From Hydnum rufescens UP504 (lineage: Eukaryota > Basidiomycota > Agaricomycetes > Cantharellales > Hydnaceae): a DNA stretch of 64,000 nucleotides. Where the stretch lies: the NCBI GenBank assembly GCA_014904985.1, contig MU129058.1, positions 93,646-157,645 of the forward strand. Direction: 5' to 3'. The notes beneath the pieces were generated by a model. The model had not been told where the DNA came from. It saw only the letters and a list, made by a program, of their open reading frames with translations, and searched no databases. This document shows, in pieces, positions 8,153 through 58,017 of this stretch (the first letter of the stretch is position 1; each line of letters opens with the position of its first letter). The position numbers and the translations under genes were made by a program.

Positions 8153-8659
8153 TAATGCAATACGTTCTTTCCTCCCCGAGCCCAGCAGCTACGTTTTTTA
8201 AATGAATTGTGCACCTTCGGTTGTATCTCGATGACACGACTTCTGGGGACTCTTTTTTTTTTTTTTTTTCTCTTCATTTTTTTTCTTTTCCCAATTCAGG
8301 ATGAGCAGTGTCGAGGGCACCCAATATTATCTGGACTTCACTACGTCCGCCTGTGTTTATTTCTTTGCACACGGTCTTGAATAATTACTGATAACATATT
8401 GTATGCGGGCACTGGTGCACTAACCCTTGCAGCATCGAGTGGGCCGATTCAGACTCTGGTGTCGAGAATCACAACAAACAACTCGACGAATCGCCTCTGT
8501 GGAATAGGGTGTAGTCCCGTGGGGTTTTTCGGTGGGCTGTCGGGAGGCATTTTGTGAGTGCTCTGCTCTTGGGTACCGATTGACAGAGTGGGGGTATATC
8601 AGGGGAATGACGGTCAAGAATGATCGGGTACAAAGCAATCATTGATGAATCCTGCACCC
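8153..8659. other. non-coding stretch with poly-T tract
   Basis: Contains a 17-base T run (8253-8269) followed by T-rich sequence to about 8290. Small open frames at 8420-8657 have no support. Confidence 0.5.
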
Positions 8660-18000: not shown

Positions 18001-21000
18001 AAGACTGCTGGTGGAGGGCTTGCAAACCACTTCTACAATGCACCTCTTTGTCGGCGCTGTCGTGACCAGTTGTCTGCTCTAAATTGTCACATTTCTTCAA
18101 GTGAAGACCTGGCACAAAATGGGGAGAGGGATCTGATCCAACTGGGCTTAAGCAGCATCACTCCAGGTGAGGCAAGGTTAGGGCATGGCAATGCTGCCTC
18201 TGGCTCTTGCCTTCCAGGTAATGATAGCAGTCAGGCACCTGAAATGGATGTCAGGGGTATCAAAAATCAACATGAGGCATATATCATCCACCACAATGTC
18301 AACGGAGGCCATATCTTACCAAACCAACATGCCACTCATTTCAAAAACTTGAAGGCAATGGAAGACCCTTCAAATCCATCAGCTCCATGGGCGAGTGAGG
18401 AAGAGTGGGCAATTGTTGAGTGGATTTTGTCAGTCCATATTTTGCAGAAAGCCATTGACCAGTTCTTAAAGCTACAATGGGTAAGCTCATCACTGTAAAT
18501 CTCTTACCTGTTCAGTATTTAAAATTGTGGCTAGGTTCGTAAGCACTCAGAGCCATTGACATTCTCTACTGCAAAGGAAGTCCATGAGAAAGTCCAGAGC
18601 ATGCCTGGTGGCCCACCATGGAAGTCTACTGAGATTACGTTAAAAGACGCACTGAACGAGCCTCAGATAGTATTTCATCGTGACCCCATCGAATGCACAG
18701 TGCATCTGTTCCAGAACCCAAAATTCGAGGGCTGCATGGACTTCACCCCGAAATTCGTCTATAACACTGATGGTACAACACGCATGTACCATGAAATGGC
18801 TACAGCAGATGGATGGCATGAGGAGCAGGTGGGTGACTTACCTGTATCACCACTATTCACCATGTCCTTACTTCGAGAACAGGCAAAGCTCCCAAAAGGA
18901 ACAACAATGCTCGCTATTATTATTGCATCAGACGAAACCCATTTAACGAACTTCTCTGGTGACAAGTCAATGCATGCAGTTTACATCACCCTTGGAAATA
19001 TCCATGATAACATGCGAAGGAAACCAATGTTCGGAGCCTGGATGTTACTTGCAAGGCTCCCCACCTCCAAATTTGCAAATACAGTTTTCAACTCCTCTCA
19101 TACAAAACTCGAAGCACAGCATATGCCTGGTGTCCTCAAGGAACAAATTTTCCATGAGAGCCTCCAAATCATTCTTGAACCACTGAGGGAGGATCGATGA
19201 GTGCCATGTGATACATTGGGTCCTGATGGATATGTCCGATGCACAGTTCCCATACTTATGGGATGGATTGCCGATATGAAGGAGCAACTTGTGATTGCCG
19301 GGGTTTCGCCATATTCATGTCCTGTTTGCATGGTTGCTCCCAGTGATCTCCAGAATTGTGGTGTATCCACACCTTGGACTGGTAAATCAACACTGGATGC
19401 ACTGGCATCTGTGCATGCAAAATATCCACATGCAACAACTTGGGAGTTTGTATGCATGGTCCGAAAATTGGGTCTTGGATTGTCAGGTCGTGTGGAGCAT
19501 CCATTCTGGGAACACTTAGGTGTGGATCCCTGTCACTTTATCTGCCAAGATCTACTACATGGCTATCACAAATCCTTTTGGGATCATGCAGCAAAATGGA
19601 TTGCACACATGATCGGAATTGACGAACTCGATAATCGATATATGGCACAACTGAAGGCTGGATTCTGCCATTTCAGCAGTGGCATCTCTGAACTCTCACA
19701 GGTGTCAGGTTGAGAACACCGGGATTTCCAAAAGTCAGCTCTTGCAGTTGTTGCTGGAGCAGAAGGAGCAGAACCTCAAGTTATCAAGGCCCTTCAAGCG
19801 CTTCTCGATTATATCTACATGGCTCAATCCCCTATCCAATCAGTTGATCTGCTAGACAAGATGTCATCTCTTCTTGCTGCGTTTCATCAAAACAAGAATA
19901 TCTTCATTGAAAATGGCTCATGCAGCGATTTGGACCATATCAATATTCTGAAGTTACATGCTCTCACTCATGGACTCGAGAATACATGGTACAATGGCTC
20001 CATGATCAATTTCACCACTGAGACCCCGAATACCTCCATATTTCCATGTGTAAGGAATTATATAATGCCACAAATCGTCGTGACATTGTTGTACAGATGC
20101 TAAGGCTTCTTGACATTAACGAACGAGTCCACTTCTGTCATGTGTATGTTGCATGGAAATGCATGGACGACCCTACCATGAACTCCCCTACTGGCGACGA
20201 TGACAACGACGATATTACTGCAGCTACAGACACAGCTCCATCACCAACAGCATTAGGAACACTGGCGATGCTGAGGGCTGGACACATCAAGATCGCACAA
20301 TGAGGACATCAGCTTCAAATCCCCATCCAAACACTAGTTGCTGAATATGGCATCCCTGATCTCATATCAGCTATATGTCGCATGGTTGAGCTTGGCGATA
20401 ATGGCACAACAACTCATGGTCGGTGGGATTATTCTATCACTTTGATCCCACCGTGCTTTGATATTCTTGATATCTGGACCTCGTTTCAGGTTACCGTACC
20501 CGGGTTCAATGAGTTCTATGCAACTGAGACCAAGGTCATCTGCTGCAAACTGGCCGGTGAGATAGCAGCAGCACAATTTCATCCAGTTCTGGTCTTGCTC
20601 TACCCCAATGCTACAGGCATACACAGTATGTTCATCCAAATTCAATCAACTTGCTCAGATCCATTGGCTTATAGTGTTTTGAAGGATATCGTGTTGCTGA
20701 ACTTCGACTTGTTTTCCGCACCCGACTAGACCGTAACAATCCGGAAAGTGAACACCCATTCTATGCACATGTTCTATGGTACACCAAGATCCCCTCCACC
20801 CCCATTCGCGATGTAAAACTATATCGTGTGGATAAGGACATCTCGATCTTGGAACACGTAGGAGTGGCATAGTGCTTCTCGAGCAGATTAAATGGCAGTG
20901 CCCTCTTGCTCCGATCATATCTGGGCCCTGTGTCCCCAAGTTAACCAGTCAGGAGTGTTATGAGAAATTTGATTCTTTTTACATTAACTCGTTTGCTAGC

Positions 21001-21027: not shown

Positions 21028-21779
21028 AAAATCACCCAAGTTTCTTTGCTTTTGCTGTCTTTCCATACTTAATTCATATGGGAGAGTTACTTACTTCATC
21101 TGGCTCTCAATCCCACACTGCCAAGCCACCTCTATCTTGAGTCAAAATTGCTCTAGATCTCTCCGATCCTGAGTTTTTATTATTAAGGCAGTAATATTAG
21201 ACAGCGGAGCATGATGAGTATGATGAGCACACAAAAAGCCTTCAAGAACCTCATCCTTAAGTGTCATAACATTCTACAAACTGGTTCTTGGGCTGTGAGT
21301 GCTCTCGAGACTCTGCATGCTCACCTTGGACAGCCGTATGTGACCCCCTTGTTAGGTATCTATTCTGGGGCACGATTTGGTACCTAAGTAGGTACCAGAC
21401 ACTATTGGGGCCCCAGTCCACCACTTTGGTTGCAGCTTGGGTGCTGATTAGGGCCCCATTGGGGCCTTATTGGGCCAACTTCCAGTCAACAGCTGTGCTG
21501 GATCACATAATTATGTATGATTATTGATTTATTTATTTATTACTATACACATATTATCCCCCGCCACCACAGGGGGGGGTTACATGTCCCCACCTGGTGG
21601 AGCCACACAACATGGTGGCCACACGCCCCATTCACCTGCACATTTCATCTGGTGGCCACATCCCTCATTCTTGTGGGTGTTCGGTCGGTCGGGTCACGGG
21701 TTTTCGTGTTGTGTCTTTGTCGGCGGGGTTTTGCTTGGGGCTTGGTGCGGTGGTGGGCTGGATAAGGTCCTAGATTGAT

Positions 21780-23808
21780 AAATAATATGTTAGTAAAAGA
21801 AGAGAAAGGCCATGCAAAAGGAGCAGCCTGTGCTGCTCCTTTTGCATGGCCAGGTGTTATAATTACCTTAAAAATTGCCACACCCACTGCAGCGGGTGTG
21901 GCTCTCCTTTTCCTCTGTGACTTCGTTCATTTGCATGGTTGTGCATACTTGCGTGCAGGAGATCCTGGCGGATTGGCGGATTTGGGCTCGCGGCAGTATG
22001 GCTTCATGTGTTGGCTGGAATAGAAAATATGTTAGTTAAAATTAAATCTCACGCAAAAAGAGCAGCGACTGCTGCTCTTTTTGCGCATTTGTAGCTATTA
22101 AGAGATACTTTTATAAGGCCACACACCCGCCGCAGCGGGTGTGTGGTGCCATGTTTTATCCATCATCGTGTCGGTTGTGGGCGTTTGGGGACTGGGCCCT
22201 TGGGTCGGGTCTTGGCTCTCAGACAGGGTTCTGGGTGGCTGGGTATGTCGTCATTTCAGCTTGGACTCGTTTGTCAGGTGGTTTCGCACAGTGAGGGGAG
22301 ACCTAGAATAAAGAATAATACATTAGTATAAAATAAAATATAAAATAAAAACACAAGACAGCACCAAAAGAGCAGCTTCTGCTGCTCTTTTGGCACCGGT
22401 GGGATTAGACCTACCTGATGTTATCACACCCGCCGAAGCGGGTGTGTGGTACGAGGTTTGGTTGATCATCATATTTGGGGGCCGGCACTCAGGGCTTGGG
22501 CTGCGCATCAAATGTCATGCTGGGGGTTGGTCGTGTCCCTGTCAGGCAGGCTTTTGCATGGGGAAGGGAAGGGACCTAGAACAAGAGAGGATAATACATT
22601 AGTAAAAAGAAAAAGGAAAACAGAGTGGTGCCAAAAGAGCAGCACAAGCTGCTCTTTTGGCACTGGTGGGATTAGACATACCTGATACTACCACACACCC
22701 GCTTCGGCGGGTGTGTGGCACCGTGTTTGATTCATATAGATCATGGGGAGTCGGAGGTTGGGGTCTTGAGTGGCTGCGCGCGTGCCTGTATTTTGGCCTT
22801 GTCGGGTTTGGTGGAGGGAGAAAGAACCTAGAATAATAATATGTTAGTAAAAAAAATACCATGAACAACACCAAAAGAGCAGCTAGTGCTGCTCTTTTGG
22901 CATCGTGGTACACCGCGTAATGAAACAACTCACCTAATTGTGCCAAACACCCGCCGAAGCGGGCGTCTGGCACCGTATTTGATTCGTCATGTAGGTTGCG
23001 GGTACTTGAGGGTCGGGCAGTCTGGGGGGCTGCGCACTCCCGTGTTTGGCCCTGAGCCTGGCCTGTGCATTTGTCGGGTCGGGTATCATGTAGTGGAGGT
23101 CCCTAGAATAATCATACGTTAGTAAAACAAAAAAAAATTTGAAGGCAATGCCAAAAGAGCAGCTGGTGCTGCTCTTTTGGCGTCGTCGTACTCCCCGTAA
23201 TCAAACAGCTCACCTAATATTGCCACACACCCGCTGAAGCGGGTGTGTGGCGCCGTACTTGTTTCGTTGTCATATAGGGTGCGAGTTGGGGTCTTGGGCG
23301 GCTGTGTGCTCCTGTATTTCGCGGTGGATGTTGTCTGTGCGTTCTTCGGGTCGGTTTCATGGAGGGAGAAAGGACCTAGACTAAGTAATACGTCAGTAAA
23401 AAAAAATAACATAAGCGACGCCAAAAGAGCAGCTGGTGCTGCTCTTTTGGCATCGTAATACACCCTGTAATTCAAAAAAAAACTGACCCAGGATTGCCAC
23501 ACACCCGCTGAAGCGGGTGTGCAGCGCCATACTTGATTTGTTGTTGTGGGGGTTGAGGATACGCGAGGGTTGGAGTCCTGGGTGGCTGCGCGTGCCCCCG
23601 TATTTCGCCCTGGGCCTCATCTGTGGATAATTCAGCTGGGGTTTCGCGGAGGGAGAAAGGATCTAGAATAACGAATTTGTTAGTAAAAAAACAACACAAG
23701 CAACACCAAAAGAGCAGCTGTTGCTGCTCTTTTGGCATCGTCGTACACCCCAGATGAAAAACTCACCTAATAGTGCCACACAACTGCGCCCCGGCAGGTA
23801 TGTGGCAC
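21780..23808 (-). repeat. left hairpin array: eight exon/intron-like units, minus sense
   Basis: Each unit of about 270 bp carries two inverted repeats. H1 (CCACACACCCGC, 4-base loop, GCGGGTGTGTGG) lies at 23773-23808, 23496-23525, 23222-23251, 22942-22971, 22691-22718, 22425-22446, 22119-22146 and 21877-21902. H2 (GCCAAAAGAGCAGC, short loop, GCTGCTCTTTTGGC) lies at 23706-23735, 23420-23451, 23150-23181, 22871-22900, 22628-22663, 22364-22393, 22052-22085 and 21808-21851. On the minus strand most units read H1, TTAG, GTGAGT or GTATGT, H2, TTTACTAA, TTCTAG, which matches an intron that contains H2 and follows H1 directly. Spacers between introns are about 170 nt. In the units I traced they do not keep one reading frame, so a repeat protein is unlikely. 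Confidence 0.8.
23103..23213 (-). other. representative intron-like segment of the left array
   Basis: Minus strand: GTGAGC donor at 23213, H2 hairpin in the middle (23150-23181), TTTACTAACGT branch-like motif, and TTATTCTAG acceptor ending at 23103. Length 111 bp. The next one is 22828-22933 (GTGAGT ... TTATTCTAG, 106 bp), leaving a 169-nt exon-like piece between them. Confidence 0.6.
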
Positions 23809-23845
23809 CGTCTCGTGCTTGGTGGCCTTGGTAGATCTGAAGAGA

Positions 23846-24181
23846 TCAATGCCGGCGATTGCCGGTCTCGAAAAAGCGCCAAGTACGTAGGTGTGAGAAA
23901 TTTAAAAATCACCCGAATGTCCTATTTTTTTATCGGCGGTGTGCTACATATACATACCACCAAAATATGGGCCAATTCTGATGCAGAGAAGTCCCTCAAT
24001 CCGCATTGCATTCTTGTCATATAGTGCCTTGGTGAAATATGACTCACTATCCCTCCTTTTATTAGAAAAATATTTATTATTTAGTATTATTTTATGTGCA
24101 GGTATCTATTATTCATTTATATAAGCCTTGTAGTGCCCGTACTTGGGCGCCTTTTCGAGACCGGCGATCGCCAGCGTTGAG
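23846..24181. mobile_element. 336-bp inverted-repeat element at the centre of the divergent arrays
   Basis: Ends are about 42-bp imperfect inverted repeats containing GGCGAT(T/C)GCCGGTCTCGAAAA, at 23846-23887 and 24139-24181. The interior is AT-rich with no coding capacity. A diverged, CpG-poor relative of the interior and right end lies at 63645-63890, so this is a dispersed repeat. Its position exactly between arrays of opposite sense means it may also act as a divergent promoter region; that is inference. Confidence 0.6.
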
Positions 24182-24215
24182 CGGTTTGTTTGATGCTTAC
24201 CTCAGGTGTCTGTGG

Positions 24216-24221
24216 TATAAA
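24216..24221 (+). promoter_or_regulatory. candidate TATA box for the right array
   Basis: TATAAA lies about 36 bp upstream of the first right-array H1 hairpin and just outside the central element. No comparable box was seen at the same distance on the minus side. Confidence 0.25.
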
Positions 24222-24256
24222 TGCTCGACCCACAAGACCGAAACGGGAAAACAGGA

Positions 24257-25714
24257 TTACACACCCGCTGTGGTGGGTGTGTGGTCATATAAGCTAAGTG
24301 TGCAGTAGATACAGCCAGGCAAAAAGGGCAGCATAAGCTGCCCTTTTTGCGCTCCTTTGACATTCTCACTAACATGTACGGTATTTCCATTCTAGGTATT
24401 GCCTCTCGCCCGAATAACGAGGCATACCAAAGCTGGCAAGAAGCATGTGAAGATTAACGCATACCACGGTACCTGCAAGAGCCTGCACGCGTGCACAGCC
24501 CCCGAACACGCGACAATGGGTAACGTACAACACTACACACCTGCTGCGGTGGGTGTGTAGTTATATCGGGTGAGTTCTCTATTACACCATGTACTGTGGT
24601 GCCAAAAGAGCAGCATATGCTGCTCTTTTGGCACTGTCCCTTCTTTTTTTTAATAATCCTCTTATTCGCTATTCTAGTTCCCCTTTCCGCCTGCCCAACG
24701 AGATCGCGAACGAAGTCCCGGATGAAATAGCGACGCGCGGCTGTCAAAAATTGAACCCGAGAGCATAGTCCCGAAACCCCCACATGTTATGCAACAAGAA
24801 GTGAAACACGGTACCGCACACCCGCTTTGGCGGGTGTGTGGTACTTTCAGGTGAGTTCTCAGTAAATATAGGTACAACGGCGCCAAAAGAGCAGGAACTG
24901 CTCTTTTGGCCCGGTGTCGCCTTCGTTTACTAATATATTATTTGTTACTGTAGGCATCCTCCCTTCATGAAAACCTGCCGGACGAGAACACGATGAAGCC
25001 CCGCATGAAGTATGGACGTGCGCAGCCGCACCAGACCCCGAGTGCCCAATCCCTGAACAATCCACGCACTACGCGATGATGGGGGAAACTTAGTACCACA
25101 CACCCGCTCCGGCAGGTGTGTGGTAATATCAGGTGAGTTTCTACTCGAGATACGTACAATAGCACCAAAAGTGCAGTAGGCGCTGCCCTCTTAGTGCTGC
25201 CCTGGGTTTCTTTTTTTTACTAACGATGTATCATTTTATTTATTATTCTAGGCTACTGTACATGAAAACACGCCCGGTAAGAATACGGGCAAGGCCCCAT
25301 ATGGAATACCGCTACACAGCCGCCCAAGGCCTGACTGCGGCCCCAGCCCTCGAACATCTGGATTGCGGTACGCGACAATGATCTAACGATGGTACCACAC
25401 ACCTGCTGCAGCGGGTGTGTGGTAATCTCAGGTGAGTTTTCACTAAATATAGGTCCAATGGCACCAAAAGAGCAGCAGAGGCTGCTCTTTTGGTGCTCTC
25501 TTTACTAAAGTGTTACTTGTTATTCTAGATCACCCCTCCTGGTGCAAAAACACACCCAGCGTGAGCCTGGGCCAGGCCCAGTTCAAATTACTGACGTGCG
25601 CAGCCGCCCAAAACCCCATTCAAATGCCCCACCCTGCCCCGAACACTGTACAGTACCTGACGATGGATAAAACGAAGTACCACACACCTGCTGCAGCAGG
25701 TGTGTGGTAATCTC
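24257..25714 (+). repeat. right hairpin array: six exon/intron-like units, plus sense
   Basis: Same units as the left array but on the plus strand. H1 is at 24257-24284, 24533-24560, 24811-24844, 25094-25125, 25393-25424 and 25678-25709. H2 is at 24319-24350, 24599-24634, 24882-24910, a degenerate one near 25163-25197, and 25461-25496. Four clean intron-like segments follow: 24570-24677, 24851-24953, 25133-25251 and 25432-25528 (108, 103, 119 and 97 bp). Exon-like pieces between them are 173, 179 and 180 nt, so codon phase is not preserved. Each H1 is followed within about 10 nt by (T)CAG and GTGAGT, with CGG instead of CAG in the second unit. The last unit has lost the donor (CAGGAGTG). Confidence 0.8.
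24851..24953 (+). other. representative intron-like segment of the right array
   Basis: TTTCAG then GTGAGTTCTC donor at 24851, H2 stem with a 3-nt loop at 24882-24910, TTTACTAATAT branch-like motif near 24926, and TGTTACTGTAG acceptor ending at 24953. The three signals sit at distances normal for basidiomycete introns. Confidence 0.6.
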
Positions 25715-28480
25715 AGGAGTGTTAATCAAGATGTGTGGAATGGCACCCGGTGCACCTCCCCTGTACTTTGGGGGGAGTTTGGCCTGGTGAGTTTCTCTTT
25801 TTTCGCATATATCAAGCATTTTCAGTACTGATATGAATATAATATCCATTCGATAATTGTAATTATGTAATTATTGAATAAATATATGCGGGTGAGGGGG
25901 AGCATATGTAGAATATAATAATAATAAGTAAATAAATAAATAATAAACAAAACACACCTCTAAGTTTTGATCCTCAGTCAATTTCGGTCAATTTCAGCCA
26001 ATTCTGGTCCAGCAGAGTTTTCGAAGTGGAGGCCATAAAAGACCAAAATCAGCTGTAATAGGGTGGGACCATGTTAGGTCCATTATCTGCCCTGGCAATG
26101 GTACCTAATTGGGTAGGCTTAGGTGACTGACCAAGGTGACCACTGGATGGATCAAGCTGAAATTTTGCACATCATTTCAATACATTCACGTTCAAAAAAT
26201 CAGCCAATTCCAATGCATAGGCCTTGTGCAGTGAGAGGGGGGAACATTGGATGTTGAAGACTGAATATACAACTTGTTTCCCAGAATTCTAGAGGTATTG
26301 ATTTCATATTAGGCCCTCCACATGTTGAGCCATCTTGGGTCATGCCCCCTTCATTTACATCACTTCCATGCATTCAAATTGGCTATAATTTTGGGGATGC
26401 TTTGATAGTACATATATATAATTCAGGGTAAAGCATTGGAGCACTCCATTTGATTTCTATTGCTGTAGAGGACAATGAATGCACAAATATGCACCCATAC
26501 TAGAGCCTCTCCCATAGATGAGATTTGGCTGATATTCCAGATTACTGAAGGGGCTACATAGATTATGTGTGTGCCAAAGTGTCACAATTTTTGCTTATAT
26601 ATTGGGCCTTCCACATATTGATCAATGTTAAGTTCACCCCCCCTCCAGTTACAGTACTCCCATGCATCCAAATTTGCTATACTTGGGCACACACCTTACT
26701 GCTAGTTACAATATTCTGTGTTCAAAATTTTGGTGGAATCCATTGCCTCCCCATTGCTCCAGAGGGGCATGAACATGAATATAAGGGTTCCAGATCTATT
26801 CAATGGGCTCAGATATGTGCTATTCAAGTAGAAATTCTGTAAATTATGTCCACATAGTGCAAGATGCTATTGGATTGCACTTGAAAGTGATCCAAATGGC
26901 TTGAAATTCAACACATAGTTGGAGAACTGTCTACTGATGTGCCTGTGTGTGATTGGGTCCAGGAGGAATGGTGGAAGGGGGCCAATCTGGACCATTTTAT
27001 AAAATAACCAAATATAGTAATTCAGGAACCATTGAATGGAATGACCTAGAAATTTGCAAATGGGTCCAGAATATGTGGGAGATATCACATGTAGAATTTG
27101 ATAATGAATAGATGAGTGGAAGGTGGCAAATTGATGGGTGTATTGTGAGCTATCCCCCCAAGTCACCATTGTTCTCTAAAAGATCTGGAAAATATATAAA
27201 CATAAAATAATTATTANNNNNNNNNNNNNNNNNNNNNNNNNNNNNNNNNNNNNNNNNNNNNNNNNNNNNNNNNNNNNNNNNNNNNNNNNNNNNNNNNNNN
27301 NNNNNNNNNNNNNNNNNNNNNNNNNNNNNNNNNNNNNNNNNNNNNNNNNNNNNNNNNNNNNNNNNNNNNNNNNNNNNNNNNNNNNAAGAGAGAATTGGGG
27401 CCAAAAAAAACCCCTTCTTTTGTTTGGGGCCCAAAGTTATTCAAAGGGAAAAACAATTTGGAATGAGGCTGAATGTTTTGTCCTCAATGTGCCCCCTATA
27501 GGTCCCATATCATGTGCCACATTTCAGATACCTAGCCACTCTGTAGCCTTCACAATGTGGTTTGATATCCTCCCTTTCCTCTCCCATTTTCACCCACTTC
27601 CCTGCATCCAATTTATTTCATTTAATTTATATGATCCTCATCCCAGCAATTGCATTATATGGACCAATTTTGGAACCATTTTGACATAATCCAGATACAA
27701 TATGTGTTTCTATTTCCCCTTTTGGGCTGCTGAGCTGGCTCCATACCTAAAAGTTGTCAGAATGGGCTGACTTTTGACACCTGGTTATTATCATTTGTGG
27801 CCATTTCATGTAAAAATTTGGAGGCCATAGCTGCCCAGTGGCCTGAGTAAATCAGTCTTCAACATCCAATGTTCCCCCCCTCATTTAACAAGACCTATGC
27901 ATTGGAATTGGCTGATATTTTGATATGTTCCTCACCTGTATATCTTTAAATTATGTGCCAAATTTCAGCCTAATCCATTCAGTGGTTCCTTTGTGGCAAT
28001 TTCTGGATTTTCTGGATTTAAAGACATACTCATTGCTTGTTTAAGGCTTAACTGCATTTGGAAGTCTGGGGTCTTTGTGATCAGCAGGTTCCTCTGAGGG
28101 TCCCCCTACCCATTTGGGCCATATTCCCTTGGTCATGGGTCTGGATTGGGCTGGATGGCTTGGGTACACTGTGGATGTACTTATTGTCCACATTTTCCGC
28201 ATTTGGGTATTACATAATTAAAATTAAATGCGGATCAGTGCCTCAGTGGTGTGGAAACTATGAAGGGGTTCATTTTGGAGCCACATTGGGGCCACATGGC
28301 ACCACATTGGGGTATATGGGCCCAATTGGGGCCCCATTTGGGCTGATTCCCTGATATTGAATTATCAATTGGCACCCATATGGCACCCCATCACAATTGG
28401 ACCTACTTAGGTACCAAAAAGTGTCACAAATTTGATACCTATCATAGGTATCAAATATGGCTGACCAGCCTGGAAAAACA
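25715..28480. repeat. AT-rich non-coding flank with diverged inverted repeats
   Basis: No gene was recognised. The segment around 26120-26275 (with AATCAGCCAATTCCAATGCA) matches 27845-27990 in reverse complement. Direct internal similarity exists between 26310-26400 and 26605-26690 (both with CATGCAT-C-AAAT and a C-rich run). The segment 25975-26140 resembles 56430-56600. An N gap interrupts at 27217-27385. Confidence 0.5.
27217..27385. other. assembly gap (169 N)
   Basis: Run of N within the AT-rich repeat region, close to the symmetry centre of the flanking inverted repeat; such a structure could have hindered assembly. Confidence 0.99.
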
Positions 28481-29545: not shown

Positions 29546-32500
29546 TTGCCACCCGCCTCTCTACCGAACTCCTCTCCCCATCCAAACCCACGCCCAAGTC
29601 GCAAACGTCCACATCGTTCCAGCGGTATCAATTGTCAAGCTGACCTTGAAGAAGTCAGTATGGGAACGTCATTTTTCTCATCCATTGGTATGACAGCACC
29701 ATCATCCAGCCCTGCAATCCCACCCAATACGATTCCGGCTCATGACATTCATGTACCTCCTATATTGCCAAGAAACCCAGGTTACATGAAAAACACGGAC
29801 TACATCGGGATGCCAACTCAGGCGAGACATGGCTGTATAGGATGATTGGTTCTAAGCACACTCCCCCACGTTTGCATTCATCTCTCCAGGTTGCCTCATC
29901 AGTGGGCCTGGCCCCTGATGTTCTTTCCAAAAATCATGATAATGGAGTCTCCACTTGTCCTGATTCTACATCATTGCAGGATGATAATCGCAGCTGGAAC
30001 CCTATTGCGACATTGGAGAGTGATGGGTTGAACGATCTATTCATTAGCGAAGCCCCTACACCTGCAAAGCAGCCCAAGTTGCGTGGCTCAGCATCTCATG
30101 GAGCATTGGCGCAGCGATGGAATGAGCTCATTCCCCGCCTTATTGTCCCCTTTTCCAGATGGGTTGCTGGAACAAACTGGGATAGTGGATTGTCTTTCGA
30201 TGCTGGTTTACCACCATGCAACAGCAATGCAGGGTGTTCTCCAAGAACACTCCATGTGATGTGTATTCGAACTCAAAGTGCATGCAGCTGATCGTTCCAG
30301 TGGCATGAATGTTATCTCATCTTCCTCCCTATACAGGTATTAATGAAATTACTCTAAACGTCTGCAGCTGCCGTCCTGCTGTGATGCTTCTCCTCGAACT
30401 TGGTCTTTTCCCATCAGCACCAGTTCATCCGACATTAGCCGTTGATCTCGACCTCCTTGACTTCACATCAACCCTCTTCAGAGTCGAGCAGCCTAACATC
30501 CACGGGTGGACAAGCGCACTGCAGATATTTTTGTGCAAATGAGGGCATGTTCTAGATGGAGAGGTACAGATCACCCAGCTACCTTTACTCTATCTTAATA
30601 TCTCCTTCATAGGATACGCTATGATGGCGCTTTGGAAAAGCACTTCAATATTACGACATCTTACTTAGTTCTATGGAGGAAGTTGTGAACAATGCCATCA
30701 TCTTAGTGAAAAAGAGCAAACAGGTGAGTGCACCCCCGAGTCAGCCCTTGGACAGCATGGTTTGTGAGTCCCCCTTGTCATCCAGCCCCTCATTGTCCAG
30801 CCCCTCGTCATCTGGCCCCTCATTGTCTAGCCCCTCGTCATCAGACCCCTTGTCGAGCCCCTTGGCATCTGGTTGTTTGGGATCTGGATCTGTGCCCTTC
30901 CCATCTGCTCCCTCATCGTCTTGTCCCTCATCTTGTCCATCACCATCTGTGCCCTTGTCATCTGGCCCCTCTCTATCCTCACATCTATCAGCCCCCCCTC
31001 TATCACCCTTACCCCCATATTCAATGCCTACATTAGAAGATCTAGCTGCCAATCCTTTCACGCGATCGTATCACACGGATCCAGAAAACCACAAACCAAT
31101 GACCAATGACACTCGACCCAGCATTTACCTTCAATATCGCTGCCCAGTGTGTTTTGGGGGGACACAGTATCCTAAGGATGGCCAGTACATACTTGTTCAT
31201 TCTTGATAAATTCCCATGACAAGATCTGGACCTTTGTTTCCTCAGACCCAGTGTATTTGTTGCCAGCGATGGTTGCGCCACTCAATGACAGCAACATGAT
31301 AGGCATGGAATGCAAGATTATGCCTTCGGGACACCACGCGATCTATTTCTCTCAATGAGCAAGACATCAGCTATGAGCAAATATTACACGGAGACCAAGG
31401 CAGCAGGAAAGTCTACAAATCCGAATCGCTCTACCAATGTTCGAGAAAGGGGAATGGTGGTCATTAATGATGTCATTGATTGCTGCGAGGATTCATACCT
31501 TGCGGCTAAAGATTATCGCATCAAAATAACAAAAGAATTCTCAGACAAGGGCCTTATTGTCTTGGTTTGCCGACACGACTGCATCCTTTGGTTCATCAAC
31601 ATGGGTCCAAATGGTGAAAAACAATATTTTATGCTTGCTATGATGCAACAGCTTCTTAGGGAGCTACCTGAGTCATTTACCATTGGTTTTTTTTACAATG
31701 TAATATGCGCTTTGCATCAAGAAATGGAATGGGTACATGGGATTCATTCCAATCAACCTATACCATCGTATTGACTATCAGCCCTCAGTGGCAACTGTTG
31801 CCCCATTGTCTGCCATGTCTCAAATTTGCCACACCCATTTTTCACTCGTATGGTCATCAATGGCCATGCCAATTGTTGTACCACCCATACAAAAATCCCG
31901 AGTTCAGTCGCACTGATGGTGAAGGATGCGAGAGAGAGTGGAATTTACTAAATGGTGTCATTCCAATGTGTCGTATTTCAGGTGTAAGTCTCCCACTCCT
32001 TTACAATACTGAATACTAAGTCTTCTATGACCATACAGTTCTATTGCCGATTGTTTGTGATAAATACCAAACAAGTGTATATTGATGGACAAAACCTGTG
32101 CAAGCTTGCAAGCCATCAGAAATGGCGCTTTGACAATGTGGTTGCTAAATTAGATGAAGCAGAGGGTGCTCTGGACAGACTAGCAATTCCAATCAACAAG
32201 ATCCAAACTGCATGGGCCAAGCAGTTGTCCACACAGCAGGCTGAGCCACCTCATGTGTTAAATCTGTTTCTCCAGATAAATTTACTGACATCGGGCAACT
32301 TAGTCCCCAAAAAGGATGCAGGGATGAAGACAATCAAATCTATACTCAACCTCCTACAGACTTGTACCACTCTCCGACGACAGATTACGCTTACTTCGAG
32401 TCAACAAGCATCTATACTTCTGCATGATCCCTCATCCCCTGACTGCATCAAATTACTTGATCGCTTAGATCAACTGCAATTGTCATTAGAACAGGTCGAA

Positions 32501-43719: not shown

Positions 43720-46700
43720 CTAGGCACGCTCCTCCAGGGTCCTGCAATACTCCCTGAGCCTGGAGAAAGCGTTCTGTAGCCCGGGTTCTGACTCGAAGGT
43801 ATTGTGCTCCGGCCCATAGCCCTTCCATCTTACGAGATACTCTCTTCTTCATTTCCGTGGATTGTATTGATGCCCGACTATTCTTTCTACTTCGTACTCT
43901 TCTTCTGCGGCTAATTCTCTCATTTCTGGGAGCTTCGCTTGTTCTTCTGCCTGGTCGTCGCGGTAGTATTTCATTAGATGTTGTATATTTATAACGGGGT
44001 GCATCCTATACTTGGGCGGTATCTGGAGGCGATATACTACAGGGTTGATCTTTTCTGAGACCAGGAAAGGGCCTATGCGATGTTGTACTAGCTTTTGCCC
44101 TGTCCCTTGTATGTCCACTAGAACCTCATCCCCTTCTTCGAACTCCTCATCACGTCGTCTAAGATCGTAAGCTTTGGCTTGCCTGGCTTGGGCTCGTACT
44201 AAAGCGTCCCTTGCTCGGGATCGGTGCACCTCGAGCTCGTTGATAAAGGCTGTTGCTGCTACACCGTTGGGCTTGATCCGGGCGATTCCTCTCTTTACTG
44301 GGTCTATTGCTACTGCTTTCGTCTGAGGTGCATACCCGTGCAATAGGAAGAAGGGTGAATAGCCCGTGGAGGAGTGTGGCATAGCATTGTGGGCCATCCC
44401 TAGCATCCCTAGCCACTGGGCCCAGGAGCTACGATTACCCGCGGTATATGCTCATAATGCTACCTCCAGTGTGTCATTAGCCTTCTCGGTCTGCCTGTCC
44501 GTTTGGGGGTGATGTGAAGTCGAGAGTAGCAGGCCCAAGTCTAAGTGCTTGGCCACTGATGCCCAGAAAGACTTGGCCCACCTGGTGTCTCGATCGGCGA
44601 TCATTTGGCAGGGGATACCATATTTCAGAACCAGGTGTCGCACGAATAGCTTTGCGAACCCCTCCTGCTTTAGATCGGAAGTCGTGGGGATGTACTGGAC
44701 AAACTTTGTAAGCTTGTCTATGATCACTAATACTGCATTGAACCCCTCCAACTTCAGGAGGCCCGTAATCAGATCTAGCGTAACTACTTCAAATGGAAGC
44801 AGCAGGATCATGTGGGGGTGTAGCTTTCCCATGGGGCCACATTTGTCTGACTTGGTCTTTTGGCAGATGTCGCATGTTCTTGTAAATTCTACAACGTCAG
44901 CCCACATTCTGGGCCAGTAGAATCTCGCAGCTAGCTTGTGAAACAGCCAGGAAGATCCTGCGTGTGCTGCTTCCCAGGGCGACTCATGAGAATCTTGGAT
45001 TATTTTCCTCACTTCTGACTTGGGTACGCATAAGCGGGTGACCCAATTGGCATCATGGAAGATGAGGAGGCCCTCCTCTGATCGATAGAAGCATCATGCT
45101 GCTGAGAGCTCCTCTTCGTTGTCAACGGCTTCTTTCCATGGCTGCTTGAAGCTGGGATCATCCTGATATCCTTGGACAAAGGCTTCTGTTCGCATGGGGC
45201 TGATGGAGATATCCAGTGTCCGGGGCATCCATTCTCGACCAGGGGGATTGGACGTCTTACCCCTCTGCCTTGCTGCTACTTCTAGCTCATCTGCTGTTGT
45301 TGGAGGTATCCCTTCTGACTTCCTTTTGGCTTGTGCTCGTGTCGATAGAAACGCTGCTCGTTCTGCTGGTCTCCTTTCTACGACATCTCCCCATGTGAAT
45401 AAGGGTTGCGCTGGGAGTTGGCTTGGTAAAGCCAGGGAGTTGTCTTCAACGGGTGATTGATGCAGTGGGATTTGTTGCAGCCTGGAGAGCGGATCTATGT
45501 TTGAGTGTACGACTCCTGCTTGATGTACTATATTCAAGCCTGGGTATGCTGCGAACACTGCCCCCCATGCCACGAGATGCCTGTTGGCATTCTCGTAGGT
45601 TCGAGCCCACTGTAGGGCCATGTGATCCGTAATTACTATGTTCTTTTCGCCTTTGATAAATGGTTGGAATCGCACTAGTGCTTCCTTAACTCCCAGAGCT
45701 TCCCTTTCAGTCACTGAGTAGTTCCTTTTGGCTGACTTCAGAGATCTGCTCCACTAGGCGATCACTCACTCGACGTTGACTATTGTGTCTTCTACTCTTT
45801 CGGCCCAAGAACCTGGATTGGGTACATTGTTTGTATTCTTCGAGACTTGATGGGCTAGTTTTGGGACCAGTTCGCCCTTGGCATGGGCATCTATGACCTT
45901 ATCATAGGTCTTCGTGCCTTTCAGATCTCGTAGGGCGATGGGCTGTACCTGCTGTAGACTAGCTCCCATCGCTAAGTCAGAGGCATCAGAGTATATGCGA
46001 TATGGTTTTCCAGGCATCGCATGCCCCAGTACAGGGGCTGAGATGAGTCCTTCCTTAATGTCTTCGAAGGCCCATTCCTGTTCTGCCCCCCAGATCCAGC
46101 TCGTGCTTTTTCATAATAATTCAAATAATGGCGCAGCCCACTCTGAATAGTGGGGTATGTAGTGTGAGAAATAGACGGCCATTCCTAAGAACGTTTGTAG
46201 TGTGGTTTTATTATGGGGGCGAGCCAAGCCTGTAACAGCTTTGATTTTTTCCTTGTGCATTGACAGCCCAGCCGGGAGACTTTTTGTCCTAGTAGCAGGA
46301 TAGAGGTATACATGAAATGACATTTCTTTGGTGCTAGAGTCAGCTTGGCTTCTGCACAAGCCTGGAGGACTTGGTCGAGATGCTCCAGGTGCTCCTCGTA
46401 TGATTTCGAGTACACCACTATATCGTCTATGTAGACTAGTGAGAATATCCATAGAAAAGGGGCTAGGATAGATTGCATCATCCTCTGGAAAATGGAGGGG
46501 CCATTCCTGAGGCCGAAGGGCATCCGTTTGAACTGCCAAAGCCCTCGATGTGAACGAAAAGCTGTCTTCTCTTTATCATCCTCGTCCATTGTCATCTGAT
46601 GAAATCCTGCTAGTGCGTCGAGGGCGGACAGAACCTGCGATCCGGACAGAGCTTGCAGTATCTCAGCTTGCTGTGGGATTGGGAACTCGTCTGGTATAGT

Positions 46701-48403: not shown

Positions 48404-50150
48404 TTAAAAATTCGGCACTGCATTGACCATCACTGAGTATGCAGCCTTATAGTCAGGTGTTTCGTACCGCCGGTGCTCCTTTTTAAGCATTCTCCTTTCG
48501 AGATGATTAGAATACGCCCCAAAGTGCTTGCAATCCCTAACCCAATGTTTTTCACTTCCACATGTGAAGCATTTTTGATTCGGCTTGTGATGGCTAACCA
48601 CAGTGTCATCCCGAGGGTAGGGATAGGTCTTTTCTGCCGTGTCCGCCCTTTTTTCCCGTGGGTAAGGGCGGCATGGTGGACGATAGGGTCTGCCCCCCGG
48701 GCGTCTTCCCACACTGAATGCCATCGAAGTGGCTTTCCCTCCTTCTGCTTCCTCACTAGAGTAGTAGAAGGCCCCATCGGGATCATCACTGTCCTTGGAG
48801 TGCAGCAAGTCTCTTTCACTCCTTTCTTCTTTGTCCTCCTGTGCCACGAAATTCGCCCTCTTCGAGTTTTTCGTCTCCTGGCAACGTCGATAGTGCTGTG
48901 AAGACCTCCACTGCATTACTAATGTCGCCTCGAACTGCTTGGCGTGCATTAGAACTGATTTGATTGGGGGTCTATCACTCCACCTCAATACTACATCCCA
49001 TTCCATGGGGGTGTTATTCATCACTGACACTGTTTCCTCAGGGCTATTGGGTGTGAAGTGCAGGAAAATGCGAGAAAGGAGGATGCATCGCTGGATGTAT
49101 TCGGCGGGTGATTCTTCAAGGTGGTCAACACTATGGAAAGTTTCCTCGTTATATTTAATTCGTTGGGCTGTATACCAAGCCTCTCCCAAGTACTTGTGCA
49201 GTACCCATTCTCGTAGGGTGTCCCAGGACTGTACAATGGAGTGCTTGACAGGTACTGAATGAGCCCACCAAGCTGTGGCCACCGCCCCTTTGAACCTGAA
49301 GGCAGCGATTTGGGCTAGTTGGTTCTCTATCGCAGGACCTAGCCCTACAAGATCATTGCACTCGTAGAGCCAATCGATCGCCGTGTCCTGATCGCCATCC
49401 CATTCGGGGACGGCAGCCCATTTCAGCTGGTTATCCCAAGTCACTCCTGATGGGGGGGGTGTTGAACGAGGCTCCTACAGGCCCCGGGGGTCCTGGGGGT
49501 CCGGGGGGGCCAGGAGGGCTGGGGGGGCCCGGGAAACCACCCTCACCTGGGAATTCTCCACTAGGAGGTACTCCTGGGGCTGGGCTGCCTCGCCCTGGGC
49601 CTCCCCTCCTGAACCTCCTCCTCGCCCAGGCTCGCCGCCATCACTCGGAGGCCCACCTCCACCTTCGTTTGAGCCCTGTGGGTGAGAGGGGGGAGGGGGC
49701 GAAGGGCCCTTGTCCTTGGAGTCCTCCATGGGGGGTCCCAGGCTTTCCTTCTGTGAAGAGCCTTGCGAAGGCATTGGGGCAGTGTGCTGGCTCCCAGGCT
49801 TCGAAAGGGGCATGCTCGTGGGGTTATGGGGGAAAAGCATGTGTGAAAGGGAGAAGGGCTCCGTCTTGACTATATTCATGTAGTAGTCATGAGCCCTTGT
49901 GGCTCCCAGGGCCGGCAAAGTGGGGGTATCTGTGACAGAGTTCCAGGCATGGCCTGGGTACTCATCTCCTTCTCCTGTGGAGTTCACTCGCCTAATCAAA
50001 TAATTGGTGAAGGCGAACGAGCACGAGAGGGCCTGCAGGTTGAAGCATGAGGGGGTCTCCACTAGGATGCCTCCCCATTGTGCATTCGCCTATAGGCTCA
50101 TTTCCCAGGATCCCATGGGCTCCCTATCCATGACTTGTGATCTGGAAGGG
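48404..50150 (-). pseudogene. gag: gypsy A gag
   Basis: Minus strand. The N-terminal part (about 50150-49475) contains SMLGEGLWNALWTPSRS and then a Gly/Pro-rich spacer (PPPPSHPQGSNEGGGGPP...). After a TAG at 49475-49477 the same frame continues with the capsid-like region WAAVPEWDGDQDTAIDWLYECNDL, a hallmark of agaricomycete gypsy Gag. It ends with a CCHC zinc knuckle CFTCGSEKHWVRDC (near 48560) and TAA at 48404-48406. Pol starts just downstream in another frame (MGQMKLASS at 48401). I see no canonical slippery heptamer at the junction. Confidence 0.8.
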
Positions 50151-51763: not shown

Positions 51764-52470
51764 TGTGAGCTCTAGAAGTTATTTGTGGCAATGGGAGATG
51801 AAATCAAAGGATATTTCCGAGTTCTTGGAGATTAATTTGTTTGTAGTCCAGTGGTTAAGATGTTTTTGTTGCTGGTTGATAATGGGGACAAGTGCATGGG
51901 ATGGGATTTGATGCAGAAACAACAGTTTACATCTGTAATAGACGTTCTTGGTATCATTCGATGCGGATTTTTAACAGCTTTCTGGGCGCGGTGGTTCCGA
52001 GCAGATCCGGTGTAAACTGACAGAGAAATTTGTTTTTTACTGATGGGTGTTGATTCTGATAGTAATATTGTTCTGTAGAGTTCAGTTTTGATCTGTTCTT
52101 CGCGTGCTTAGTACCGTTTGATGCAGATTTTTATATCTTTTCAGGCGCGGTTGTTCTGAAAGGATTGGATGTGAACTGACGGAGAAATTCGTTTTTTACT
52201 GAAAATCCCGGATTTTGACAGTAATATTGGTCTGGAGAGTGCATTTCTGGTCCGTTCGACTTGTGTTTGGTACCATTTGAAAGGTATGAATCGTGGCTTT
52301 CCGAGAGTTATATGGGCGTACCTCTCCGATCAAAACTGACGGAGTTATAGAACGAATTCGATTTCTGCGCGTAGCCGTAATTGATTTCATAATAGGTCAC
52401 ATGATCATTCCAATGGCTGGGATCAATGGATATTTGCATTTTCTGATACTGGATGTTTTTATCTTCCACA
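51764..52470 (+). mobile_element. LTR-like repeat X (707 bp)
   Basis: Begins TGTGAG and ends TTCCACA. An inverted copy lies at 57308-58017. It holds three internal repeats of about 175 bp, each with GACGGAGAAATTCG-type sequence. The flanks (TCTAC left, CCGGA right) show no target duplication. On its right it abuts the RNase H part of gypsy B directly. Confidence 0.7.
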
Positions 52471-56429: not shown

Positions 56430-57307
56430 TCGGCCAATTTTTGGCCAATTTTTGGCCATTTCGGCCAATTCTGGGCCAGAAGGTGCAGACCATAAAATGG
56501 CCATTTCGGCCGGAATAGTAATGGGACCTACTTAGGTACCATTATCTGCCCCAAAAGTGGTACCTAACTAGGTAGGCTTAGATGACTGACCAAAGTGAAA
56601 AATCTCATCTTAGAGTACCACACACCTGCCACAGTGGGTGTGTGGTTCCTGGGGCCACTCATTGGCCCTGGGTCATTTCGTGTCTTCATCTGGTGGGTGG
56701 TCCTTCTTCGCCTGCACGGTATTCATTTGGCAGGTGGCCTTGGGTGCATGTTCATGTGGTGCTGTTGTTTCGGGGGGCTCAGGTTCGTTTGGCGGTTCTT
56801 CGTTTGGCCGTCTGTTCCATTCGTTCTTTCCTTCATTTCATTGGCCGCAGGCCAGGCGATACCTAGAAAAATAGATACATTAGTTAGAAATTGAAACCAG
56901 CACAAAAAGAGCAGCTTTCACTGCTCTTTTTGTGCGGCTGTATCTACTTGGGTGGGGACTCACCTTATATAGTGCCACACACCCGCTGTGGCGGGTGTGT
57001 GGTTCCTTGGGCCACTCATTGGGTGCATTGTCATCCATTGCACTGTCGTCTGTCACATTGTCGTCCATTGTGCCATCGTCTGTCGCATTGTTGTCCATCG
57101 TGCTGTCGTCTGTCACATTGTTGTTTGGCGCGTTGCCATCTGTTGCATTGGGTGTGTCATCATCTGTCGCGTTGCTGGTTGGGCTCCTGCCATTCGGGGC
57201 CTCATCGTTTGGCAAGTGGTCGCTGTGCGGGACCAGGCCATGATCTGAAATAATAAAAGATGTGTTAGTAGAAAAATCCAAAGCAGCGCAAAAAGAGCAG
57301 CTTGCAC
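56430..57307 (-). repeat. third hairpin cluster, truncated
   Basis: Starts with GGTACC motifs like the flank of the main array (compare 25975-26140). H1 follows at 56618-56645, H2 at 56900-56935, H1 at 56975-57002, and the left half of an H2 at 57286-57307, cut by LTR-like repeat Y. The H1/H2 order and the GGACTCACC and CCTAGAAAAATAG motifs show minus-strand sense. Between 57000 and 57240 a GTCATCTGTCG-type short repeat occurs. Confidence 0.75.
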
Positions 57308-58017
57308 TGTGGAAGATAAAAACATCCAGTATCAGAAAATGCAAATATCCATTGATCCCAGCCATTGGAATGATCATGTGACCTATTATGAAATCAATTA
57401 CGGCGACGTGCAGAAATCGAATTCGTTCTATAACTCCGTCAGTTTTGATCGGAGAGGTACGCCCATATAACTCTCGGAAAGCCATGATTCATACCTTTCG
57501 AATGGTACCAAACACAAGTCGAATGGACCAGAAACGCACTCTCCAGACCAATATTACTGTCAAAATTCGGGATTTTCAGTAAAAAACGAATTTCTCCGTC
57601 AGTTCGCATTCAATCCTCTCGGAACAACCGCGCCTGGAAAGATATAAAACATCCGCATCCAACGGTACTGAGAACGCGAAGAACAGATCAAAACTGAACT
57701 CTACAGAACGATATTACTATCAGAATCAACACCCATCAGTAAAAAACGAATTTCTCTGTCAGTTTACACCCGGATCTGCTCAGAACCACCGCACCCAGAA
57801 AGCTGTTAAAAATATGCATTGAATGATACCAAGAATGTCTATTACGGATGTAAACTGTTGTTTCTGCATCGAATCCCATCCCATGCACTTGTCCCCATTA
57901 TCAACCAGCAACAAAAACATCTTAACCACTGGACTACAAACAAATTAATCTCCAAGAACTCGGAAATATCCTTTGATTTCATCTTCCATTGCCACAAATA
58001 ACTTCTAGAGCCTCACA
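57308..58017 (-). mobile_element. LTR-like repeat Y (710 bp)
   Basis: Inverted copy of 51764-52470. On the plus strand it starts TGTGGAAGAT inside an H2 hairpin and ends CCTCACA. The other half of that hairpin is not found beyond the right end, so the insertion was accompanied by deletion or recombination. Confidence 0.75.

Follow-up and report, generated by a model that had tools for sequence, protein, structure and literature searches.

The hairpin array that we analysed in a 64,000-nucleotide stretch of the Hydnum rufescens UP504 genome (the window) is best explained as the interior of a non-autonomous, probably KDZ-mobilised DNA transposon that carries two divergent, non-coding, spliced-looking arms. 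We consider this explanation reasonably probable as a whole and its structural part highly probable. The transposon ends and target duplications, the divergent layout, the lack of coding constraint, and the conservation of stems and splice signals between subfamilies are documented below at the level of the genome sequence, from which transcription and splicing of the arms in active copies also appear quite likely.

The window array contains 14 hairpins of one kind (H1) and 13 of a second kind (H2) within 21808-25709, far above chance. Folding of four units gave -63 to -78 kcal/mol (z -7.0 to -9.6), and no Rfam model matched the window at gathering thresholds. The sequence-only reading had described 14 units with the order H1, donor, H2, TACTAA, TTCTAG. 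The hairpins and the motif order are real, but the array does not lie on a single strand (eight H1 are on the minus strand and six on the plus strand), and a single 14-unit array is ruled out by the divergence of the two arms from a centre near 23.83-24.18 kb. The minus arm (21770..23766) has eight introns (23663-23766, 23376-23487, 23103-23213, 22828-22933, 22576-22681, 22303-22414, 22015-22108 and 21770-21866), eight intronic H2 hairpins (21814-21845, where pairing reaches 21808-21851, 22053-22084, 22363-22394, 22630-22661, 22870-22901, 23150-23181, 23420-23451 and 23705-23736), and eight exon-end H1 hairpins (21876-21903, 22119-22146, 22422-22449, 22691-22718, 22943-22970, 23223-23250, 23497-23524, and a degenerate copy at 23777-23806 that was placed by eye). 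The plus arm (24293..25528) has five introns (24294-24395, with a GC donor and a start possibly at 24293, 24570-24677, 24851-24953, 25133-25251 and 25432-25528), five intronic H2 hairpins (24319-24350, 24601-24632, 24882-24910, 25164-25195 and 25463-25494), and six exon-end H1 hairpins (24257-24284, 24533-24560, 24814-24841, 25096-25123, 25395-25422 and 25680-25707), the rightmost of which has no donor 3′ of the hairpin. The 13 introns that can be drawn are 94-119 nt long, and the junction pairs 24851/24953 and 25432/25528 that had been proposed earlier are exactly two of them. The splice motifs are present in order but looser than had been claimed: an exact GTGAGT donor is found in 6 of the 13 introns, an exact TACTAA in 9 and a CTAG acceptor in 11; one donor is GC, and a clear branch motif is missing from one intron. 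The window also carries a second, truncated array on the minus strand (56617..57310), with H1 near 56618 and at 56975-57002, H2 at 56900-56935, an intron at 56863-56963, and a broken H2 at about 57284-57310.

Pattern searches of the 63.2-Mb genome located H1 at 4,978 places (up to 2 mismatches) and H2 at 6,162 (up to 3 mismatches), and neither reversed control pattern had a match. The H1 pattern had no match in viral contigs. A bacterial contig, of Clostridium sp. N3C, carries a single palindrome similar to H1, and the other parts of the unit are absent from the 501 bases inspected. From 34 stretches on 25 contigs we collected 276 H1-H2 pairs, 187 of which have a recognisable donor between the hairpins. 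In a smaller set, of 221 pairs, 109 spacers contain GGTRAGT on the transcribed strand and one contains it on the opposite strand, and 113 pairs have TACTAA downstream, as compared with none for TTAGTA. Donor, branch point and acceptor follow in order, at fungal spacing. The distance from H1 to the 5′ splice site in the 187 pairs is 9 nt in 115, 7 nt in 30 and 11 nt in 26; at the commonest spacing H1 spans -10 to -37 relative to the end of the exon, with the tetraloop at -22 to -25. H2 is positioned between the 5′ splice site and the branch point, with medians of 30 nt from the 5′ splice site to H2, 20 nt from H2 to the branch point, and 106 nt for the intron.

The stems, commonly 12-16 bp long, are the same in all units and the loops are variable. 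One rival explanation is that H1 and H2 are small-RNA precursors, miRNA-like or, for H2, mirtron-like, and that the element uses or suffers RNAi. Stable hairpins in thousands, the location of H2 inside short introns, and the Piwi-domain genes of this genome would agree with it. However, stems of 12-16 bp are short, as the usual Dicer substrates are longer, and common stems with variable loops are the reverse of what target diversity would need. Small-RNA production also leaves unexplained the fixed distance between H1 and the 5′ splice site and the U-poor exons, and we think this explanation unlikely.

The arrays fetched from the genome are embedded in DNA transposons whose inverted ends have the form CA...TG and are 4.9-9.7 kb apart. 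Target duplications of 7-8 bp were found at six of the nine end pairs checked: they are perfect 8-bp duplications at five (C250, C169, C100, C38 and L031) and 7 bp at L064, and are absent from the window copy, C248 and C9. The elements have the order end, leftward arm, central palindrome, rightward arm, end. In the window, the left terminal inverted repeat is at 21322..21345 on the plus strand (CACCTTGGACAGCC...), where more than 20 of the 44 matches listed break off sharply at 21322 (21319-21322). The right repeat is at 28449..28472 on the minus strand (CAGGCTGGTCAGCCA...), with a sharp boundary at 28472/28473 in many of the 69 matches listed. Because the window copy has no target duplication, 28472 is the likely rather than the proven right end; an end-like sequence on the minus strand at 26114..26138 (CACCTTGGTCAGTCACC...) might be a remnant end or an alternative right end. 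A Helitron, raised by the hairpin-like 3′ end, is ruled out by the 7-8 bp duplications and the inverted ends.

The end sequence CAGGCTGGTCAGYCA occurs exactly 594 times in the genome and its reversed control not at all. Of 26 matches to KDZ transposase on contigs C1-C33, six are followed by such an end at a distance of 1.8-3.0 kb downstream, in every case oriented as the end of the KDZ gene's own element would be, whereas neither of the two upstream neighbours is so oriented. Furthermore, the homology of two KDZ loci stops exactly at that end (L075 8369 and L076 8163). The far end of the KDZ element was sought in L068-L070, L075-L077 and L078 and was not found, so the ends common to KDZ and array elements rest on one terminus. 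The KDZ match of the window itself (31310-31774) is outside the element at 21322-28472. Because such ends adjoin KDZ transposase genes (6 of 26), the array elements are probably non-autonomous and mobilised by a KDZ transposase.

These boundaries bear on what it is that moves. The earlier suggestion of a mobile, introner-like unit was right as to mobility, but the moving thing is a DNA transposon of several kilobases that carries whole multi-exon arms. A strict introner hypothesis would hold that every H2 intron is itself mobile and was inserted many times; the introns are indeed short, similar and numerous, and an introner can itself be a DNA transposon that duplicates its target site (PMC9860276). 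Nevertheless, the ends and duplications delimit the 4.9-9.7 kb elements, kilobases apart, and not introns, and exon and intron were duplicated jointly as units of about 280 bp. On contig C1, the 16 exact H1s among the matches listed fall into six clusters, four of them with at least two H1s, and the hairpins lie within transposons wherever examined. We therefore consider independent intron insertion very improbable.

We compared subfamilies in 44 alignments of 64-81% identity at non-CpG sites; the families are mutually related, and the counts are thus not independent. Mismatches were found at 30 of 459 branch point sites, 18 of 287 acceptor sites, 171 of 2236 H2 stem sites and 132 of 1605 H1 stem sites (6-8%), at 66 of 531 donor sites (12%), and at 863 of 4021 intron filler, 1754 of 7435 exon and 617 of 2555 centre sites (21-24%). 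The exon-intron reading of the units is supported in that the splice motifs are better conserved than their surroundings; the contrary outcome, intact hairpins with random splice motifs, was not observed, as stems and splice motifs are retained together. Changes on both sides of the stem were seen in 242 cells for H1 (shuffle mean 93, maximum 123) and 252 for H2 (shuffle mean 112, maximum 130). Outside CpG pairs, G-U exceeds A-C in H1 stems (60 and 36, P = 0.018), and the corresponding numbers in H2 stems are 44 and 29 (P = 0.10); CpG-site pairs show no excess. As a means of telling RNA-level from DNA-level selection this comparison is weak, and it reaches significance for H1 only. Because the G-U excess is not clear in H2, selection at the RNA level on that stem is unproven.

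Seven recent copies give a different picture. Their variable non-CpG sites number 33 of 1461 in exons, 15 of 678 in intron filler, 2 of 271 in H1 stems, 4 of 346 in H2 stems, 0 of 73 in branch points, 1 of 52 in acceptors and 3 of 87 in donors. No compartment but the loops differed significantly (pooled stems 6/617 versus exons, P = 0.052), and the host therefore does not visibly preserve the units. Raw variability had suggested host selection (H1 loops 28/56, branch points 1/74), but this proved to be mostly CpG decay, CpG sites being 52-85% variable in the larger compartments. Because the subfamilies show conservation and the recent copies no significant difference, splicing and hairpins look to have been under selection while the elements were active. 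It could be argued that the array is a passive tandem repeat whose motif conservation reflects recent common origin only, as decay in recent copies does not clearly distinguish between compartments. This seems very unlikely, given that in the same alignments, at 64-81% identity, divergence of stems and splice signals is about one third of that of the adjoining filler.

The loops of recent copies exceed exons in variability at non-CpG sites (5/29 and 6/50 versus 33/1461), and loops flip between copies, for example in C14 (TTCG/CGAA at 22691 and ACCA/TGGT at 23420). Both observations show that hairpins are inverted in DNA, events that could likewise yield paired stem changes. H1 and H2 might then act as DNA, as palindromic sites for protein binding or recombination which spread and stay symmetric through template switching, with the splice motifs incidental. 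However, donor, branch point and acceptor are conserved too, apart from the stems and on one strand only, and the loops are strand-biased: in 214 distinct pairs, H2 loops are GNRA in 43 and the mirror form in 1, and H1 loops are UNCG in 37 and the mirror form in 10. A role confined to DNA is, in our judgement, improbable.

Divergent arms surround the centre in the loci surveyed, and in 9 of 11 loci the centre is a palindrome of 392-654 bp (87-99%). The palindrome probably contains one promoter in two copies. The window centre (23826..24180), where an inverted match of 43 bp (88%) pairs 23846-23887 with 24138-24180, is its decayed counterpart and a probable two-way promoter. AATAAA occurs 10 times in the sense orientation in 37.9 kb of arms as compared with 75 times in 15.5 kb beyond them, where the antisense count is 21; past 4 of the 23 arms no sense AATAAA occurs. 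In the window, AATAAA-type signals cluster at 21525..21545 past the minus arm and at 25877..25950 past the plus arm, the first at about 25877, with four sense and no antisense copies within 700 nt of each arm.

The sequence-only reading had also held that the exons do not keep codon phase, which argued for a non-coding RNA, and this agrees with our results. In 28 exons picked from CpG-rich, less decayed arrays, the best frames contained 15 stops (18.0 ± 3.2 in dinucleotide shuffles), 17 exons were open (14.5 ± 2.4), and there were 97 ATGs (97.2). CpG-rich copies include C1:370211-375519 and C3:395509-402377; the window copy is decayed. Division of exon lengths by 3 leaves varying remainders, and the reading frame is not kept across exons. 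The element seems to encode no protein. One could still propose a family of protein-coding genes whose exons were duplicated in tandem, decayed in the window, because one exon of the second window array is open throughout and a relative with 71% identity is covered by a gene model in the public annotation of Hydnum rufescens UP504 (P0009, a hypothetical protein). Yet the 28 exons are no more open than shuffles, exon lengths fit no common frame, and stops are few because the exons are U-poor in composition. We give a coding origin very little credence.

We propose the following model for the probably KDZ-mobilised element. Two transcription units would diverge from the central palindrome, most of them ending in poly(A)-signal clusters, and each would consist of exon-intron modules that were duplicated in tandem and yield a non-coding spliced RNA. 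H2 would fold away the stretch between the 5′ splice site and the branch point and so shorten the intron, and the arms might give a fast, cleanly spliced, host-like RNA that escapes silencing by stalled spliceosomes. The exon junction complex is normally deposited at -20 to -24 from the exon end, a site that H1 covers at its commonest spacing; H1 might block or shift the complex, so that the non-coding RNA evades decay. An open, transcribed element would be accessible to the KDZ transposase, which presumably mobilises it. Matches to Mago nashi, Piwi and DNA methylase are present in the genome. These particular benefits, evasion of silencing by clean splicing and escape from decay through H1, are doubtful, and only tentatively do we suggest a transposon that has made splicing a survival trait, with hairpin-guarded modules and a host-like RNA that sheds the marks of splicing.

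In Cryptococcus, stalled spliceosomes are reported to mark transposons, splicing quality being a recognition cue in basidiomycete cells (PMC6232588). Non-coding arms that keep splice signals and hairpins while the element family evolves would put the opposite strategy to a natural test. If H1 masks the sites of the junction complex, they would also offer a natural experiment on the effects of such marks. They are a warning to gene annotators too, as such an array underlies at least one public gene model, the hypothetical protein P0009.

Among known systems, the fungal KDZ (Kyakuja-Dileera-Zisupton) transposons share the CA...TG ends, the 7-8 bp duplications and KDZ genes beside the same end. 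Reported target duplications are 8 bp for Zisupton and 7 bp, with CA..TG termini, for Kyakuja (PMC12730594), and 8 bp for Cryptococcus KDZ1 and 4-8 bp for KDZ2/3 (PMC12810828). The array elements differ in that no transposase was found within the window element and in that their interior consists of two divergent, spliced-looking arms round a palindrome. We found no description of the divergent hairpin exon-intron layout in the one open-access library searched. DNA transposons gave rise to many introner families, the fungal group in the introner survey being Pezizomycotina (PMC9860276). Introners and introner-like elements are likewise mobile introns with conserved splice signals, whereas here the mobile unit is a multi-kilobase element that has exons, a promoter-like centre and poly(A) signals of its own. 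Like MITE-type non-autonomous elements, the array elements have ends in common with an autonomous relative, and no transposase of its own was seen in the window element; unlike MITEs, they are large and have conserved interior RNA features. The Xist A-repeats exemplify a long non-coding RNA with repeated stem-loops and resemble the arms in having one hairpin in tandem copies in a non-coding RNA, but the arms have one hairpin per exon at a fixed junction distance and a second kind per intron, and are borne by a transposon. Finally, the SOLE stem-loop of oskar is positioned relative to an exon junction, as H1 is, and works with the junction complex (PMC4509934); SOLE, however, is formed by the joining of two exons, whereas H1 is repeated and contained entirely within the upstream exon.

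Fourteen copies of a 28-nt hairpin, H1 (CCACACACCYGC-loop-GCRGGTGTGTGG), and thirteen of a second hairpin of about 32 nt, H2 (core CAAAARGAGCAGC-loop-GCTGCTCYTTTTG), are present between 21.8 and 25.7 kb of the window. In the reading direction, each unit runs from exon to H1, 5' splice site, H2, branch motif and acceptor. The sequence-only reading had described a single array of 14 units with repeated splice motifs. The 14 H1 hairpins and the motif order were recovered, and 13 introns could be drawn, but exact motifs were found in only some of them (GTGAGT in 6/13, TACTAA in 9/13 and CTAG in 11/13), and the H1 hairpins split into eight on the minus and six on the plus strand, which indicates that the array consists of two arms diverging from a centre at 23.83-24.18 kb. 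RNA folding of four window units gave z-scores of -7.0 to -9.6. A second array, at 56.6-57.3 kb, is truncated; at 51943-52280 and 57330-57800, a 159-bp tandem repeat and the sequence that cuts this array off resemble each other by eye.

Throughout the 63.2-Mb assembly, H1 was found at 4,978 places (up to two mismatches) and H2 at 6,162 (up to three), and the reversed patterns of both, used as a control, at none. Of 187 units, 115 have 9 nt between the end of H1 and the 5' splice site, 30 have 7 nt and 26 have 11 nt; by the medians, H2 starts 30 nt past the 5' splice site, the branch motif follows 20 nt past H2, and the intron measures 106 nt. The outer end of one arm (8540-8650 of the fetched stretch L031) is crowded with smaller, degenerate H1-like hairpins, and in the copy on contig C248 (stretch L059) over 1 kb of inserted sequence interrupts the H1 that corresponds to window position 25096.

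The surveyed loci have the minus arm to the left of the centre and the plus arm to the right, and several contain a pair of elements or nested elements. Of 11 centres examined, 9 have a palindrome of 392-654 bp with 87-99% identity between its arms; the palindromes of the window (43 bp, decayed) and of stretch L073 (112 bp) are shorter. By eye, the half-palindrome appears to contain CCAAT-like, TATA-like and pyrimidine-rich sequence. The 37.9 kb of arms contain 10 sense AATAAA motifs and the 15.5 kb beyond them 75; in that outer sequence at least one followed 19 of 23 arms, and the antisense motif occurred 21 times. The 89 antisense copies inside the arms are explained by the TTTATT runs that precede acceptors.

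That the exon-like pieces are non-coding and out of codon phase, as first proposed, was borne out. Exon lengths kept no constant phase, and 28 exons, hand-chosen from CpG-rich arrays (T 10.5%, A 32%, C 34%, G 24%), were no more open than dinucleotide shuffles, with ATG neither enriched nor depleted. Judged by these sequence properties, the array exons are not coding. A public gene model on contig C106, the hypothetical protein P0009, spans an array exon and seems to read part of H1.

Two-sided changes in the stems exceeded those in shuffles two-fold. GNRA loops in H2 were strand-biased (43 versus 1; counted by arm, 26/62 versus 1), as were UNCG loops in H1 (37 versus 10; by arm, 21 versus 9). 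G-U exceeded A-C in H1 stems (60/36) and was not clearly above it in H2 stems (44/29). Near-identical copies have inverted loops on unchanged stems at H1 22691 and 23223 and at H2 23420, showing that hairpin inversion also occurs at the DNA level. We take RNA to be the main level at which the hairpins would act, with effects on DNA added.

Searches with the array flanks located sharp boundaries at window positions 21322 and 28472 in many copies, the ends being CACCTTGGACAGCC... and CAGGCTGGTCAGCC.... Among nine end pairs checked, five are flanked by a perfect 8-bp duplication (C250, C169, C100, C38 and L031, in the last of which it reads GGTTACCA), one by a 7-bp duplication (L064) and three by none (the window, C248 and C9). 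In five of the six duplication-bearing elements, reading the interior showed an array; for the sixth, C100, the ends alone were fetched. Because its end pair lacks a duplication, the window copy would be either rearranged or bounded elsewhere than at 28472/21322; another end-like sequence lies at 26138. Where the element ends on the right, a different repeat starts at exactly 28473, and several copies elsewhere match only from there. The left flank does not continue this repeat, which suggests that the target was rearranged or that two elements abut. The window also contains pieces of a Plavaka transposase upstream of the array element (18556-19713), of a KDZ (Kyakuja-Dileera-Zisupton) transposase downstream of it (31310-31774) and of retrotransposons (43849-44406, 48404-49444 and 52653-54464; Tf2-1-like SH3, zinc knuckle, and integrase with chromodomain).

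KDZ elements are the probable autonomous partner of the array-bearing DNA transposons. The genome contains at least 154 KDZ transposase matches and 594 places with the exact end CAGGCTGGTCAGYCA. On contigs C1-C33, where the comparison used 96 end places among the 100 matches listed of 594, this end lay 1.8-3.0 kb downstream of 6 of 26 KDZ matches, each time oriented as that gene's own element end; the two upstream neighbours point away. In the KDZ loci L075 and L076, homology stops exactly at the CAGGCTGGTCAGYCA end, and the L075 element is located within an array. A search for the far end of the KDZ elements did not find it. Duplications of 7-8 bp have been reported for fungal KDZ elements (PMC12730594, PMC12810828).

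Seven near-identical copies (window, C138, C143, C206, C473, C248 and C14) were aligned. CpG sites varied at 52-85% in the larger compartments versus about 2% at other sites, the pattern expected if CpG sites of these elements are heavily methylated and deaminated. Exons, introns, centre and left flank varied at about 2% of non-CpG sites; stem variability lay below that of exons, not significantly (6/617 versus 33/1461 sites, P = 0.052), loops varied more because they flip, and we attribute the excess in the right flank (60/227) to an indel that disturbed the alignment. Between subfamilies (64-81% identity; 44 alignments against 27 stretches, which are not independent and carry no P value), non-CpG differences amounted to 6.3-8.2% in branch points, acceptors and both stems, 12.4% in donors, 21.5-24.1% in intron filler, exons and centre, and 50-55% in loops. 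One explanation, hairpin-to-hairpin copying, cannot keep branch points and acceptors, which are too short and too separate. Given conservation between subfamilies but no significant stem difference among recent copies, we conclude from the alignments that splice signals and stems are probably kept by selection on still-moving elements, not by the host.

One possible role of the modules is that they would yield fast, clean splicing and would hide the marks that splicing leaves. Counted from the exon end, the H1 loop occupies positions -22 to -25, and the exon junction complex sits 20-24 nt upstream of junctions (PMC4509934); this position, the unit geometry, the presence of a Mago nashi gene in the genome and the recruitment of RNAi by stalled splicing of transposon RNA in Cryptococcus (PMC6232588) led us to this proposal.

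The initial statement that no described family with this layout was known agrees with searches of an open-access library (subscription journals lie mostly outside it), which listed no account of arms like these, whether in KDZ elements or in others, and, on Hydnum repeats, nothing beyond one large comparative paper. The mobile element itself belongs to a known kind, and what it carries inside appears to be undescribed.
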